Both the position numbers and the translations under genes were made by a program. Of a stretch of 64,000 nucleotides of DNA, positions 9,301 to 58,936 are shown piece by piece. The stretch's first letter is position 1; every line of letters begins with the position of its first letter. The notes under the pieces were generated by a model, which searched no databases, had not been told where the DNA came from, and saw only the letters and a program-made list of their open reading frames with translations. Origin of the DNA: Fodinibius halophilus (GTDB lineage Bacteria; Bacteroidota; Rhodothermia; Balneolales; Balneolaceae); NCBI RefSeq assembly GCF_011059105.1, contig NZ_JAALLS010000017.1:1-64000 (forward strand), given 5' to 3'.

Positions 9301-9337
9301 TTCTTTGTTATCGTGTAAGTTCCTCATAGAAGTATCG

Positions 9338-9601
9338 TCAGTTCGGGTTTAACTCTTCAATTAACTCTAATTTCTTCTTTCGAGAGCCTGCCTTAATCTG
9401 CTTTTCCCGGTCAATGGCATCCTGCGGATGGTTATATTCCTCAATATACACCATTTTTGTGCAGTTATAGCGTTTGGAAAAGCCATCTATCAATTGTTGC
9501 TTGTATTGCCAACCCCGTTTTATAATATCACTCGTCATACCAGTATAGAGTACGGTGTGATGGGCGTTGCTCATGATATAGACGTGATATTTTTTTGCCA
9601 T
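9338..9601 (-). CDS. Small GIY-YIG nuclease-domain protein
   Basis: This is a single-domain GIY-YIG protein of 87 aa. It shows YHVYIMSN (first motif) followed by VLYTGMTSDIIKRGW (YTG in place of YIG, with the conserved Arg), then YIEEY with the metal-binding Glu, and AIDREKQIKAGSRKKKLELI. Small proteins of this UPF0213/YhbQ-like type are predicted nucleases of unknown role. I chose the ATG at 9601. A longer TTG frame reaching 9652 would start inside the right-hand repeat. A 5-bp hairpin (9602-9617: AAGAT / ATCTT) abuts the ATG on the mRNA. Inverted family B termini lie on both sides: CTCGCAGTGAC at 9285-9295 and GTCATTGCGAG at 9658-9668. The arrangement is similar to the second GIY-YIG gene at 45701. 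Confidence 0.85.
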   Translation of the reverse strand: MAKKYHVYIMSNAHHTVLYTGMTSDIIKRGWQYKQQLIDGFSKRYNCTKMVYIEEYNHPQDAIDREKQIKAGSRKKKLELIEELNPN

Positions 9602-9649
9602 AAGATAGTAAGATCTTTTTGAGAAGTGTCCCTTACAATCCTTTTTAAC

Positions 9650-43914: not shown

Positions 43915-45105
43915 CTAATTTTTTGATCCCTTAAGCCCTTTAATACCTTTGATGGCCTTTTCATCAAGTAGGTTCGTATCGTACGATCGGATACGCCCTA
44001 TTTTTTTCTGATGACGCTTTTGTGCAACGTCGATTAACTTTAGCATTAATTCTTTCATATTCATTCCGCTTTCTTCCCACAGATAGAAAGAGAAGGAGCC
44101 GGGAATGGTATTGATCTCATTAAAAAAGACTTCTTCGGTTTCTTCATTGATCAGGAAGTCTAGTCGTGCTACCCCGCTGGCGCGAAAAACTTTAAAGATC
44201 TGTTCTGACAGCGATTGAATCTTTTCAGTCAGTTCATCAGAAATATCAGCAGGAATAACGCGGTCGGCAGAAGCCATGCCTTTCTGTCCGCCGTCGGATT
44301 GATACTTATCCTCAAAGGAGAGTGTATCCTCTTGTCCCAATGGTCGTTCACAAACGCTGGTTTGCAATTCTTCAGGGGTGCCCAGCACCGAACAGTTAAT
44401 CTCCATTAACGGACTAACCGCTTTTTCGATCATCAAATTATTATCATAGCGAAAAGCCGTTTCTATGGCTTCGATGAGTGCTTGTTCATCGGTGGCTTTA
44501 GTAACGCCAATACTGCTGCCCAATCTTGTCGGTTTAATAATTACCGGGTATTCGAGCTGTTGGGCATAGTGAAGTACGGTATCGCGGTCTCTTTCCCATT
44601 CTTTTTCAAAGAAGTCGAACTCATCCACTACGGGTATATTATGGGCACGGCACAGTTCTTTGGCTTTAACTTTATCCATGCCGATACTGGAGGCAAAGAC
44701 CCCGCTGCCGGCGTAGGGGATATTATAGGTCTCACAGGTACCCTGAAATGAGCCATCTTCCCCTTCAGATCCATGAAAAGCGGGGATGACTGCATAAATG
44801 GGGTATTCCTCCGGGCTTCCAAAGAAACTTTTCTTTTCTGTTTCAAGAAGGATTGGTTTTCCCATCTTGTTATGAGAAAAAGTACAGTCGGTTGCCTGTT
44901 CTCGAAGTTTATCGAGATCTTTATAATTTTCAAGTTCCAGTAGAGGTGTGCCCGTTAACCAACGTCCCGATTTGCTAATATACAATGGGATGAGATTAAA
45001 GCTGCTCTCTTTTAAGGAGGCGATAACCTGCATAGCAGAGAGCACGGATACTTCGTGTTCGGGGGAGACCCCACCAAAGGCAATGACTATGTTTTTTGAG
45101 CTCAT
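43915..45105 (-). CDS. ddl: D-alanine--D-alanine ligase
   Basis: ATP-grasp ligase that makes the D-Ala-D-Ala dipeptide of peptidoglycan. N-terminal FGGVSPEHEVSVLSAMQV is characteristic, followed by PAFHGSEGEDGSFQG, GMDKVKAKELC and VIIKPTRLGSSIGVTKA, with FFNEINTIPGSFSFYLWE closing the ATP-grasp core. Length of 396 aa is somewhat long for Ddl, with an extended ELENYKDLDKLREQATDCTF segment. It heads the ddl - SBP - nadK run. ATG at 45105. Confidence 0.95.
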   Translation of the reverse strand: MSSKNIVIAFGGVSPEHEVSVLSAMQVIASLKESSFNLIPLYISKSGRWLTGTPLLELENYKDLDKLREQATDCTFSHNKMGKPILLETEKKSFFGSPEEYPIYAVIPAFHGSEGEDGSFQGTCETYNIPYAGSGVFASSIGMDKVKAKELCRAHNIPVVDEFDFFEKEWERDRDTVLHYAQQLEYPVIIKPTRLGSSIGVTKATDEQALIEAIETAFRYDNNLMIEKAVSPLMEINCSVLGTPEELQTSVCERPLGQEDTLSFEDKYQSDGGQKGMASADRVIPADISDELTEKIQSLSEQIFKVFRASGVARLDFLINEETEEVFFNEINTIPGSFSFYLWEESGMNMKELMLKLIDVAQKRHQKKIGRIRSYDTNLLDEKAIKGIKGLKGSKN

Positions 45106-45606
45106 AAAACAGTCTGGATTTTTACATTTACCAATCGCCTTAATGATAATAAAAGATCACTTCAGATGTGATAAGGAAAGTGGACTATTTAGAGAGGGAG
45201 ATTAGGTGATTAAGTTATTAGTGTATGCTGAGACAAGATGCGTGACTCGTGATAAGCGAAGGTGGGATGTTGGAAGTTGGAGTAACCGTCGTCAATCATC
45301 TGTTGTCTGTTAGTGGTTGTCGATTGTCGATTGTCGGTGGTCGGTACATTTTTAATACTTCATACTTTTCACTACATAATTATAAGTCAACCACTAAGAC
45401 ACTAAGGTCACTTAGCCATCTTAAAACTGGGGTGTGTATAATGAACTCTGTCCGGGCTGCTTACTATGGGGTAAGTCCAGTGGCAGGTGATCTTCAAATC
45501 GAATTATTAACTGTTTGCTGATAGGTACTTCCCTGAGCTCTATGTCAGTTGTAGTTTTTGCTATTTGTTTTCGTGATAGATTGAATAATAGAAAAGACGA
45601 ACTACA
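45106..45606. other. Gene-free region with word-like repeats
   Basis: 45185-45420 carries repeat phrases (GGTGGGATGTTGGAAGTTGGAG, CGTCGTCAATCATCTG, GTTGTCGATTGTCGATTGTCGG, CCACTAAGACACTAAGGTCACTTAG). The open frame at 45249-45521 is built from these and is rejected. 45421-45606 has no recognisable feature. Confidence 0.65.
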
Positions 45607-45635
45607 GATCCTGAAACAAGTTCAGGATGACAAGA
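45607..45635. repeat. Left arm of perfect inverted repeat flanking GIY-YIG gene
   Basis: This 29-base sequence is the exact reverse complement of 46086-46114. Within the arm, ATCCTGAA and TTCAGGAT form an 8-bp stem-loop (written here in the 46086 orientation). It resembles the widespread bacterial repeat of the GTCATCCTGAA...AGGATCTC type. Confidence 0.9.
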
Positions 45636-45700
45636 GGTTTAAAAGAGATATTTATTTGTAAGGATTAGAGTTTAACAAGCTCTTACTTATAAAAAGTAAG

Positions 45701-46027
45701 ATGCGTTTTCAAAACATTGTCACACAGAGAGGATATGTTTATATCCTATCCAACAAAACGAGAAGAGTTCTCTACATTGGTGTTACTGGTAACTTAGTTA
45801 AGAGAGTTTGGTTGCATAGACAAGGACTAGGGTCAGAATTTACCCAGAAGTATAGAACTAAGTATTTAATTCACTATGAGTCTTTTAAACATATTGAAAG
45901 AGCCATTAACAGAGAAAAACAGCTTAAGAATTGGCACAGGGAGTGGAAGCTCAATTTAATAAGAGAACATAATCCAAAGTTTAGAGATCTTTGGCCCAAA
46001 ATTCTACTTAGGAGAAATTATTTTTGA
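45701..46027 (+). CDS. Small GIY-YIG nuclease-domain protein (repeat-bracketed)
   Basis: A single GIY-YIG domain of 108 aa: GYVYILSNKTRRVLYIGVTG with GIY-like and YIG motifs, then LVKRVWLH with the conserved Arg, the Glu of IHYESF, and AINREKQLKNWHREWKLNLIREHNP. A hairpin CTTACTT/AAGTAAG (45682-45700) abuts the ATG and could mask ribosome entry. The gene sits centrally between two exact 29-base inverted repeats, 65 bases upstream and 58 downstream. It is AT-rich and shares this layout with the 9338-9601 gene. Proposed: a mobile or repeat-associated nuclease. Its role cannot be proven here. Confidence 0.85.
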   Translation: MRFQNIVTQRGYVYILSNKTRRVLYIGVTGNLVKRVWLHRQGLGSEFTQKYRTKYLIHYESFKHIERAINREKQLKNWHREWKLNLIREHNPKFRDLWPKILLRRNYF

Positions 46028-46085
46028 GCAAGTATTATTTGAAGAGTGCGCAAAGAGTACATGGAGCTTTTGAAAAATAAAAAAA

Positions 46086-46114
46086 CTTGTCATCCTGAAC
46101 TTGTTTCAGGATCT
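46086..46114. repeat. Right arm of perfect inverted repeat flanking GIY-YIG gene
   Basis: Exact inverted copy of 45607-45635. It lies 58 bases after the GIY-YIG stop. Related palindromic cores appear inside element C at 58799-58936 (GTCATCCTGAATTCAG) and, more distantly, at 10040-10167 (GTCATTCTGAGCTTGTCG). Confidence 0.9.
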
Positions 46115-46205: not shown

Positions 46206-48380
46206 CTATTTCTGCTGCGCCATGTAGTAGAGTTGTATAATACGCAACTCATCATAGCCCACCTTTTTATCCAGCTTATTATAAATTGGCCGCAGCATAT
46301 GGGGTGCTACCTCATCAAAGACTTCCAGCACTTTGTTCCTCTTGCGGGTTGAAAGCGAAGAAGCTTTAACGATACCCTCCGGCCGCAGATCATTGCCATC
46401 CTCTAAATACGTTTTAAGATGTTTAATGATCGTCACATTCTTTACTCCGTACTGTTCAGCCAGGTGGTCCACAGATTTTCCTTCATTAAAGGATTCCCCG
46501 ATTCGCTGGTATTTCTCTTTTTTAGAAAGCTCTTCCTTCTTTTCCTTTAATACCTTTTCCTGCTCTTCAATATCATTCGTTTTACAATATTCGCGAATGA
46601 TTTTTAGGAAGTCCATTCCATACTTCTTTTTCTTAACCGTCCCCACACCATAAATAGGAATTAGGTTATCCGTAGTTTGTGGAAAATAATAGGCCATTTC
46701 CATGAGCGTAGTATCCGGGAAGATAGCATATGGAGGTACGGCCTGTTCATCGGCCAGTTCCTTCCGCTTATCACGAAGTTGTTCAAAGAGATCTTTTTCA
46801 TAATTCTTTTCAACCTCGGATGTAGTACGTTCCATAGCCTGGTCGCCGACTACGGTATCACTGCGATCAAGGGCGCCAAACACATTTTCTTTTCCATCGA
46901 GTACGGCCCGTGCTTGGTCGGTTAGGGATAGAGGACCGTGACTTTCGTTCCGGTCTAAGTATTCCTGGTTCACCAGCATGCGGGCCAGCAAGATCCATTG
47001 CTCTTTGGCCCACTCATTGCCAATATTATATGTAGGCAGTTCATCATGACCGTTTTCGAGCACTTGTTCTTTGGTGGAACCACGGAGGATATCGGCAATA
47101 TAATAGGCATCGTATTGTTCGCCGGTGCGTACAGCACAGGATAGAAACTTCTGAGCATGTACCGTTAAATCTTCTACCTCGGCATCAATAGAGAGGCAGT
47201 TGTCGCACATTCCGCAATTATCTTTTTTATAGGTTTCTCCAAAATAGCCCATCAGCGGAACTCGGCGACACTCGTCGGTCTCCATAAACTTCAGCATATC
47301 CTTCAGGTGCTTTTCAGCTACCTTTTTCTCTGTGCCTTCTTTTTGATTGATGAAGTACTGGATCTTTTGTTTATCCGACCGGCTATAGAGTACCAGGCAG
47401 TCGGCACGGAGACCGTCGCGGCCGGCCCGGCCAATCTGTTGGTAGTACGATTCAATATTTTTGGGCAGATCGTAGTGCATTACAAAGCGCACATTGGGTT
47501 TATCAATACCCATCCCAAAAGCAATGGTTGCAACGATGATCTGAATATCATCGCGAATAAACATTTCCTGGTTCCGGTTACGGAGTTTCTTTGAGAGTCC
47601 GGCATGATAGGGTTTTACCGAATGTCCTTCTTTTTTGAGCTCTACATAGAGCTCTTCTACCTGCTTTCGAGAGAAACAGTAGATAATACCCGATTGCTTT
47701 TTACGGGTATAGAGAAAATCCAGGGTTTGCTCCAGCGGATCTTCTTTGTCGGCCACTTTTAAAAAGAGGTTTTTACGGTCGAAGCTGGCCAGGAATGTTT
47801 CTGAGTTATCGAGCTTTAGAATATCTTCAATATCTTCACGAACACGGGGAGTAGCAGTAGCCGTAAGAGCCAGACAGGTGGCATTGGGGAAATCCTTGCG
47901 GATTTCAGTTAGTTCGCGATAGTCCGGTCGAAAGTCGTGTCCCCATTCCGAAATACAGTGTGCTTCGTCAATGGTAAAAAGATCAACATTTTGGGTGGCA
48001 AGCAGCTTCCGCGTTTTATCCATCATGAGCGTTTCGGGAGCCAGGTACAGCATTTTAATTTCTCCGTTACGTACCCGATCTACATTCCGCTGGTATTCGT
48101 CGGGGCTCAACGTACTGTTAAGAAAAATGGCTGGAATATCATACTGTTGCAGCTGTTCTACCTGATCTTTCATTAGCGAGATCAATGGTGAGACGACAAT
48201 GGTGAGGCCATCGAAAAGGAGTGCCGGTATCTGGTAGCAAAGAGATTTACCGCCACCGGTAGGCATGATAACCAAGGCGTCTTCCTTATCAAGAACCTGC
48301 GTAATTACTTCTTCTTGCAGGGGACGGAAATCTTCATATCCAAAAACGTTATTTAATTTGTTGCGTGCTTCTTTAATCAT
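46206..48380 (-). CDS. recQ: ATP-dependent DNA helicase RecQ
   Basis: Superfamily 2 3'-5' helicase acting in recombination and replication-fork repair. Motif I is MPTGGGKSLCYQ (39-50), motif II is IDEAHCISEWGHDFRPDY, and motif VI is QIGRAGRDGLRADC. A Cys cluster (ECRRVP...CGMCDNC) marks the zinc part of the RQC region, followed by a winged-helix part. The C terminus has an HRDC-like stretch and an HTH (SVDHLAEQYGVKNVTIIKHL). At 724 aa it is longer than E. coli RecQ (609), owing to this C-terminal extension. ATG at 48380. Confidence 0.96.
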   Translation of the reverse strand: MIKEARNKLNNVFGYEDFRPLQEEVITQVLDKEDALVIMPTGGGKSLCYQIPALLFDGLTIVVSPLISLMKDQVEQLQQYDIPAIFLNSTLSPDEYQRNVDRVRNGEIKMLYLAPETLMMDKTRKLLATQNVDLFTIDEAHCISEWGHDFRPDYRELTEIRKDFPNATCLALTATATPRVREDIEDILKLDNSETFLASFDRKNLFLKVADKEDPLEQTLDFLYTRKKQSGIIYCFSRKQVEELYVELKKEGHSVKPYHAGLSKKLRNRNQEMFIRDDIQIIVATIAFGMGIDKPNVRFVMHYDLPKNIESYYQQIGRAGRDGLRADCLVLYSRSDKQKIQYFINQKEGTEKKVAEKHLKDMLKFMETDECRRVPLMGYFGETYKKDNCGMCDNCLSIDAEVEDLTVHAQKFLSCAVRTGEQYDAYYIADILRGSTKEQVLENGHDELPTYNIGNEWAKEQWILLARMLVNQEYLDRNESHGPLSLTDQARAVLDGKENVFGALDRSDTVVGDQAMERTTSEVEKNYEKDLFEQLRDKRKELADEQAVPPYAIFPDTTLMEMAYYFPQTTDNLIPIYGVGTVKKKKYGMDFLKIIREYCKTNDIEEQEKVLKEKKEELSKKEKYQRIGESFNEGKSVDHLAEQYGVKNVTIIKHLKTYLEDGNDLRPEGIVKASSLSTRKRNKVLEVFDEVAPHMLRPIYNKLDKKVGYDELRIIQLYYMAQQK

Positions 48381-58798: not shown

Positions 58799-58936
58799 GG
58801 GAGCTTTGCAAAACTCGGTATGTCATCCTGAATTCAGTTCAGGATCTCGGTTTTAATGCTAATAACTGTATATGAGATGCTGATCCGCCAGCCGGCGGAC
58901 AGCATGACAAGATGTGACTAGTTTCGCAAAGTCCCC
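58799..58936. mobile_element. Element C (MITE-like), diverged copy
   Basis: It begins GGGAGCTTTGCAAAAC and ends GTTTCGCAAAGTCCCC, the same inverted ends as 10040-10167 and 41296-41424, around a different interior. The interior carries GTCATCCTGAATTCAG and a CCGCCAGCCGGCGG palindrome. No clear target duplication is seen. Confidence 0.65.

Follow-up and report, generated by a model that had tools for sequence, protein, structure and literature searches.

A small GIY-YIG nuclease gene between inverted palindromes, a candidate partner of CGTC-tagged repeats

In Fodinibius halophilus, a gene for a small GIY-YIG nuclease lies between two inverted copies of a short palindrome. Do gene and palindromes form one mobile unit, and could the nuclease be the enzyme that multiplies the repeats? 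The DNA analyzed here (the window, 64,000 nt) comes from a contig in a 4.19-Mb draft genome and has the following features.

45606–45634, minus strand: left arm, AGATCCTGAAACAAGTTCAGGATGACAAG, forming a perfect 29-nt inverted pair with 46086–46114
45608–45631: left-arm hairpin, GTC tag pointing to the gene, reading TGTCATCCTGAACTTGTTTCAGGATCT on the minus strand
45658–45686, plus strand: 29-nt element GTAAGGATTAGAGTTTAACAAGCTCTTAC (GTAAGG...TCTTAC) 5' of the GIY-YIG gene, role unassigned
45701–46027, plus strand: GIY-YIG nuclease gene, 108 aa, intact
46086–46114, plus strand: right arm, exact reverse complement of the left arm
46089–46112: right-arm hairpin, GTC tag pointing to the gene
43915–45105, minus strand: ddl (D-Ala-D-Ala ligase), one neighbour of the GIY-YIG gene
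46206–48380, minus strand: recQ, the other neighbour
9317–9604, minus strand: second GIY-YIG gene (L004), broken by one TGA, of another clade, with GTCATTGCG-type repeats around it
58822–58847, plus strand: solo palindrome GTCATCCTGAATTCAGTTCAGGATCT, of the same superfamily as the arms, elsewhere in the window

The earlier note had placed the gene between exact inverted 29-base arms, each able to fold on itself, with spacings of 65 and 58 bases. Arms and folding were confirmed, the left arm starting one base earlier than given there (45606–45634 instead of 45607–45635); the spacing of 58 nt was right, while the other is 66 nt, and the unit totals 509 bp. The repeat search found one perfect 29-nt inverted pair, the arms of which are separated by 451 nt. 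Each arm has the layout TGTC-ATCCTGAA-CTTGT-TTCAGGAT-CT and folds into a hairpin (8-bp stem, 5-nt loop; -6.5 and -6.1 kcal/mol, z about -2.5). The 24-nt core of the arms matches the window only at the two arms (0 matches expected from shuffles), and genome-wide it has 62 matches with at most 3 mismatches (reversed control pattern, 0). Dispersed variants alter both sides of the stem jointly (ATGCTGAA/TTCAGCAT, ATTCTGAA/TTCAGAAT and ATCCCGAA/TTCGGGAT).

These properties recall the CGTC-tagged REP superfamily described by Di Nocera, De Gregorio and Rocco in 2013, which includes the neisserial dRS3 and the rickettsial RPE-4 and RPE-6 repeats, is known from five phyla and has Azospirillum lipoferum as a named host (PMC3733652). 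In that description TGTC and CCTC are also allowed as tags, a CCA tail is usual but not universal, and the repeats apparently lack a dedicated transposase, none of them flanking tyrosine transposase genes (PMC3733652). The window repeat agrees with it in the tag (unpaired TTGTC ahead of the stem in both arms), in the stem of 8–9 bp beginning with AT and the loop of 4–5 nt (ATCCTGAA/TTCAGGAT with loop CTTGT), and in its dispersal in 62 copies against none for the reversed control, with stems that differ between copies. It differs in the tail, which is CT(C) (CT in the window arms) where CGTC REPs mostly have CCA. Among 98 distinct hairpins near homologues of the nuclease, all of which retain the CGTC-type stem and loop design, the tail is CT in 71 and CC in 16, the second stem pair is T-A in 77 and C-G in 15, and the third is C-G in 38, G-C in 28 and T-A in 14. 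Pairing is kept while the stems vary; the extraction demanded at least 5 of 8 stem pairs and is therefore biased towards pairing. Judged by tag, stem and loop, the window repeat fits into the CGTC-tagged superfamily. The CGTC REPs of PMC3733652 had no known partner enzyme, whereas the window repeat brackets a GIY-YIG gene, and a gonococcal homologue of this gene has dRS3 repeats on both sides.

The 108-aa protein matches Pfam GIY-YIG with 51.4 bits (cut-off 22.6) and has no other Pfam match. Its catalytic residues Y14, Y25, G27, R35, E72 and N91 are kept across 51 aligned homologues. With its GIY and YIG motifs, its catalytic R, E and N and its fold, the protein qualifies as a member of the GIY-YIG nuclease superfamily. 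Its predicted structure (pLDDT 91) is closest to the UPF0213 protein 1zg2 and to Slx1; UPF0213 (1zg2, 1ywl) and Slx1 share its fold and are the nearest solved structures, and the sequence similarity is weak (E 0.009). Slx1 is a nuclease acting on branched DNA, and we know of no tie of UPF0213 or Slx1 to repeats. A defence system, a phage gene and a known RNA were dropped as identities, since the nuclease had no match in PADLOC (defence), PHROGs or phage records and an Rfam scan for known RNA gave no convincing match. In another member of the genus (G003), the GIY protein segment is identical to that of Aliifodinibius salipaludis.

The motif GTAAGG-N17-TCTTAC stands at near-constant length 5' of the gene in many Balneolota relatives. 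Its distance from the gene is also constant in relatives. It was detected at 49 of 172 homologues, whereas random placements gave 4 of 2084, and among the matches listed it is found mostly in Balneolota relatives. The motif also precedes paralogues that have other repeat types.

Hairpins and nucleases across bacteria

A scan of GTDB species yielded 80 loci encoding relatives of the 108-aa protein, which span Bacteroidota, several Patescibacteria groups, Gastranaerophilales, Pseudomonadota, Elusimicrobia, Atribacteria, Kryptoniota, Neomarinimicrobiota, Spirochaetes and others. A GTCA-anchored hairpin was present within 400 bp at 74 of the 80 loci and on both sides at 45, where the hairpins mostly lie within 60 bp of the gene and are inverted in 35 cases; random placements in the same loci gave hairpins on both sides in 0 of 2504. 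Enrichment of such repeats on both sides of GIY-YIG genes, which the earlier note had named as support, was found: 41 of 76 GIY genes are bracketed within 250 bp, compared with 2 of the 347 other ORFs at these loci (P-value = 2e-33, Fisher test). The hairpin association is specific to the small GIY family and is not shared by UvrC or GIY genes of about 300 aa (no such hairpin at any of 11 loci) or by Y1_Tnp genes (IS200/RAYT-type; no such palindrome at the 8 loci of the window genome). Chance or composition was ruled out by shuffles, the reversed pattern and the ORF controls, and a RAYT as mobiliser by the eight Y1_Tnp loci.

Nuclease relatives were found in 52 of 146 relative genomes, a patchy distribution. 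At least five TGAA palindromes occur in 20 of the 28 genomes whose homologue is close (at least 90 bits) and in 10 of the other 118 (P-value = 2e-11); the association also holds inside the host family (P-value = 4e-8), and these statistics ignore shared ancestry. TGAA palindromes are few in eight genomes despite a close homologue, at least partly because the homologue belongs to another repeat type. Conversely, palindromes without a close homologue were found in five relatives, G100 (100 copies), G106 (49 copies), G004, G007 and G009. The copies in G106, a genome with 81% completeness, are uniform. Most of the copies sampled in G100 form dimers of about 80 bp within a larger repeat starting GGCTTTGCAAAAC, so that another carrier is possible for these palindromes. 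The idea that G100 and G106 have a different enzyme between their repeats was rejected, no ORF being common to 30 loci, except for two overlapping loci.

A comparable carrier exists in the window genome, where the GCTGAA subtype lies inside a MITE-like repeat bounded by CTTTGCAAAAC ends; the nuclease therefore need not have produced all palindrome copies. The carrier contains two inverted palindromes of different subtype, about 79 bp together with their shared spacer, within the larger CTTTGCAAAAC-ended repeat, and it was located at L028, L031, L032 and L035 of the window genome and at L328–L342 of G100. The subtype of the window's own arms is found singly, in diverse surroundings that lack CTTTGCAAAAC ends.

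A shorter palindrome, CATGT(A/G)CTGA..., was seen nested in the palindrome loop to the right of the GIY gene at L002 and in the right arm at L161 and L165. The nesting is at the same spot in two genera and is lacking from the orthologous arms of G006, G085 and G078, which suggests that the palindrome loop is an insertion site.

Paralogues at a greater distance have different flanking repeats, which likewise begin with GTCA, namely the TTCCCGCG and TCGCGGGC types and longer bulged repeats of the GTCATTGCGAGG...GCGGCAAT and GTCACCCTGAGC...GGGTATC types; the hairpin types of other nuclease clades include the GTCATTCCCGCG and GTCATTGCGAG types. The repeats were sorted into five types by fixed patterns. 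This sorting is our own and partly coarse, two types are present at some loci, and the few alignment columns leave many forks of the protein tree unsure. On this tree the repeat type changes 17 times, while shuffled types gave a mean of 51.8 changes and none of 200 shuffles was as low; among host relatives alone there are 13 changes. The window genome itself holds four GIY genes, which have three repeat types between them and all fall into the clade that matches their repeats: TGAA-type repeats at L001 and L002, CCGAG-type repeats at L003 and GTCATTGCG-type repeats at L004. As far as this tree allows, each nuclease subfamily keeps its own hairpin type, even paralogues within one genome.

Gain and loss of the unit

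The earlier note had also asked whether the unit of about 508 bases occurs at different loci. Arm-bounded units are indeed present at several loci, with empty sites in relatives. G085 carries four near-identical copies at different loci; two of them, L203 and L198, are 97% identical over a 411-bp unit from GGTCAT to ATGAC, and their 150-bp flanks are only 25–32% identical, the level of chance. No clean empty site was obtained for the L203 unit, since the right flank was found in relatives and the left side differs.

Between ddl and recQ, the site is filled in the window genome and in G006 (protein 82% identical, same arms), and G010 has one fused palindrome, AGATCCTGAA-ACAAG-TTCAGGATCT, and no gene. 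In eight other members of the genus ddl and recQ stand side by side with neither gene nor palindrome. A second site, between acyl-CoA dehydrogenase and rfbB, is filled in the window genome and G006 and empty in G010, G005 and G001. The acyl-CoA dehydrogenase of G010 is 97% identical to that of the window genome and that of G006 91%. Because G010 is nearest to the window genome and yet the more distant G006 is filled, losses in G010 are likelier than two gains, and G010 was judged less likely to represent the state before insertion. The units of the window genome and G006 are 79–82% identical, like the nearby recQ and rfbB, and this fits vertical descent since the split from G006. At both sites in this genus, the pattern resembles old insertion followed by loss more than a recent jump.

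Presence and absence were also found elsewhere; all sites together, filled and empty pairs were seen at five or more loci in three bacterial lineages. The site between polA and crtI (phytoene-desaturase-like) is filled in G027, G068, G085 and G078 and empty in G060 (93% identical at the neighbour). Between sufB and sufC, Azospirillum lipoferum 4B has a GIY gene with two pairs of inverted repeats, and A. ramasamyi, A. oryzae and strain B510, 95–97% identical around the site, have only about 90–130 bp. Two compared Sphingobium plasmids are filled, two (TomTYG64 and TomTYG74) carry a single symmetric palindrome without the gene, and one has none. Between gltA and lpxB of Sinorhizobium meliloti, strain Ak57 is filled and K101 is empty. 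Judging from these sequence comparisons, gain and loss of the unit both occur. When filled and empty sites are aligned, the break can be placed at several points, the halves of the arms being direct repeats, and no clear target duplication is seen; exact borders and target-site duplication are therefore not claimed.

At L194, L198 and L199 (G085) and L196 (G068), about 60 extra bases that the units share on each side form an outer inverted repeat-like structure (TTGTAGATGT...AATTCGTTGACA), as if a small MITE had received a unit and had multiplied afterwards.

Possible mechanism and rival explanations

The two-sided association, the match between repeat type and nuclease clade, the arm-bounded duplicates and the filled and empty sites are observed. 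We consider it likely that the 509-bp unit is an autonomous, REPtron-like selfish element, composed of a GIY-YIG nuclease gene and two inverted cognate palindromes, which spreads by cutting and copying of the hairpins; binding, cutting and copying driven by cuts are inferred. The Slx1/UPF0213-like nuclease would recognise the GTC-tagged hairpin, available as an extruded cruciform or as single-stranded DNA at the replication fork, and then cut it. Repair of the break by copying another palindrome or the arm-gene-arm unit could place palindromes, and sometimes the whole unit, at new sites. The dispersed single palindromes would be non-autonomous relatives of the unit, and loss of a unit may leave a single fused palindrome. 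That the nuclease spreads the repeats remains an inference, as the earlier note had it.

The note's comparison with REP elements and RAYTs was apt, and the repeats are of the CGTC class, previously without a known enzyme (PMC3733652). A REPtron combines a RAYT/TnpA-REP tyrosine transposase with GTAG REPs (PMC2817692, PMC8266576). Like it, the window unit has one enzyme gene with inverted copies of a dispersed tagged hairpin around it, and enzyme and repeat types are paired. Unlike it, the unit encodes an unrelated GIY-YIG hydrolase in place of an HUH/Y1 transposase and its repeat tag is GTC instead of GTAG. No HUH/Y1 transposase lies between the repeats, and the Y1_Tnp genes elsewhere lack them. 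To our knowledge, strand transfer is not expected from a GIY-YIG enzyme. Set against IS elements or MITEs, the unit gives a mixed picture: its ends are inverted but hairpin-shaped, it has no transposase inside, and the filled and empty pairs reveal no clear duplication.

Homing endonucleases offer another comparison. The Seg proteins of phage T4 are free-standing GIY-YIG homing endonucleases, and they resemble the window gene as small selfish GIY-YIG genes with possible spread by cutting and repair. Presence and absence at a site were seen here, while cutting of the target is inferred. The two differ in that the target of the window nuclease would be a multicopy palindrome, and we know of no hairpin arms or dispersed repeat family with free-standing GIY-YIG homing endonucleases. 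The main rival explanation takes the gene as a homing-type parasite of CGTC REPs, whose palindromes spread otherwise and are used as landing sites, which would leave the gene between two copies. We think this unlikely, but it is not excluded: free-standing endonucleases of this sort are known, some genomes are rich in palindromes yet have no close homologue, and the symmetric solos without a gene (G010, TomTYG64 and TomTYG74) could be targets before insertion. Those solos, however, are rare among dispersed copies, which fits a scar better than a usual target; the arms move as the boundary of the unit (L203/L198), palindrome copy number tracks the gene, and no other enzyme has been linked to the palindromes, either at the Y1_Tnp loci or in PMC3733652.

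A domesticated host repair enzyme that processes repeat hairpins, with the adjacent repeats as autoregulation sites, would account for the Slx1/UPF0213-like fold, the hairpins near both gene ends and the conserved element 5' of the gene in relatives. We regard this as improbable: the distribution is patchy (52 of 146 relatives), genomes hold many copies, copies are often broken, and empty sites as well as arm-bounded duplicates exist, all of which fits a selfish element and not a host gene. Palindromes are abundant in several genomes, and bracketing might in principle be a by-product of dense intergenic REPs around small inserted genes; the controls contradict this so firmly that it is hardly tenable, given that 41 of 76 GIY genes but 2 of 347 other ORFs are bracketed, and given the inverted arrangement at 35 of 45 two-sided loci, the match of repeat type to clade and the lack of hairpins at UvrC and Y1_Tnp loci.

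With the selfish element as the preferred reading, the nuclease is a good candidate for the missing enzyme of the CGTC palindromic repeats. We lean slightly, and no more than that, towards a very widespread separate class of bacterial mobile elements in which a GIY-YIG nuclease of about 100 aa, without a transposase, multiplies GTC-tagged palindromes. Across many phyla, such a class would cover CGTC REPs, dRS3, RPE-type repeats and the longer bulged repeats of GTCATTGCGAG type, and every clade of the nuclease would have a palindrome to which it is specific. GTAG and CGTC repeats are the two large superfamilies of short bacterial palindromes. For GTAG repeats the partner, RAYT, is known; the question of the CGTC partner has been open since 2013, and a GIY-YIG gene is now proposed. 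Small genes known merely by the annotation 'GIY-YIG nuclease family', of which there are many, gain a context, and matched pairs of hairpin and nuclease become available for specificity studies. If the nuclease drives the spreading, GIY-YIG enzymes would be added to the few enzymes that create dispersed repeats. Our literature search found no paper linking GIY-YIG nucleases to palindromic repeats, but most subscription papers and bioRxiv were outside its scope, so an earlier description is possible; a 2025 survey of REPs mentions neither transposases nor nucleases (PMC12306157).

Other small GIY-YIG loci

One homologue, L315 on plasmid p1 of Planktothrix agardhii, has an MmeI-type restriction enzyme gene on one side and the DISARM gene drmA on the other, with GTCATTCTGAGTGAAACGAAGAATC repeats in its surroundings. 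A third small GIY-YIG subfamily adjoins tRNA genes (Asn, Asp, Gly, Ser, Met, Pro and Val) at 8 of 12 loci (L247, L251, L252, L254, L255, L259, L262 and L266, in genomes G100, G007 and G009). Some of these loci have a degenerate partial tRNA copy on the opposite side, as if the units used tRNA genes as their site.
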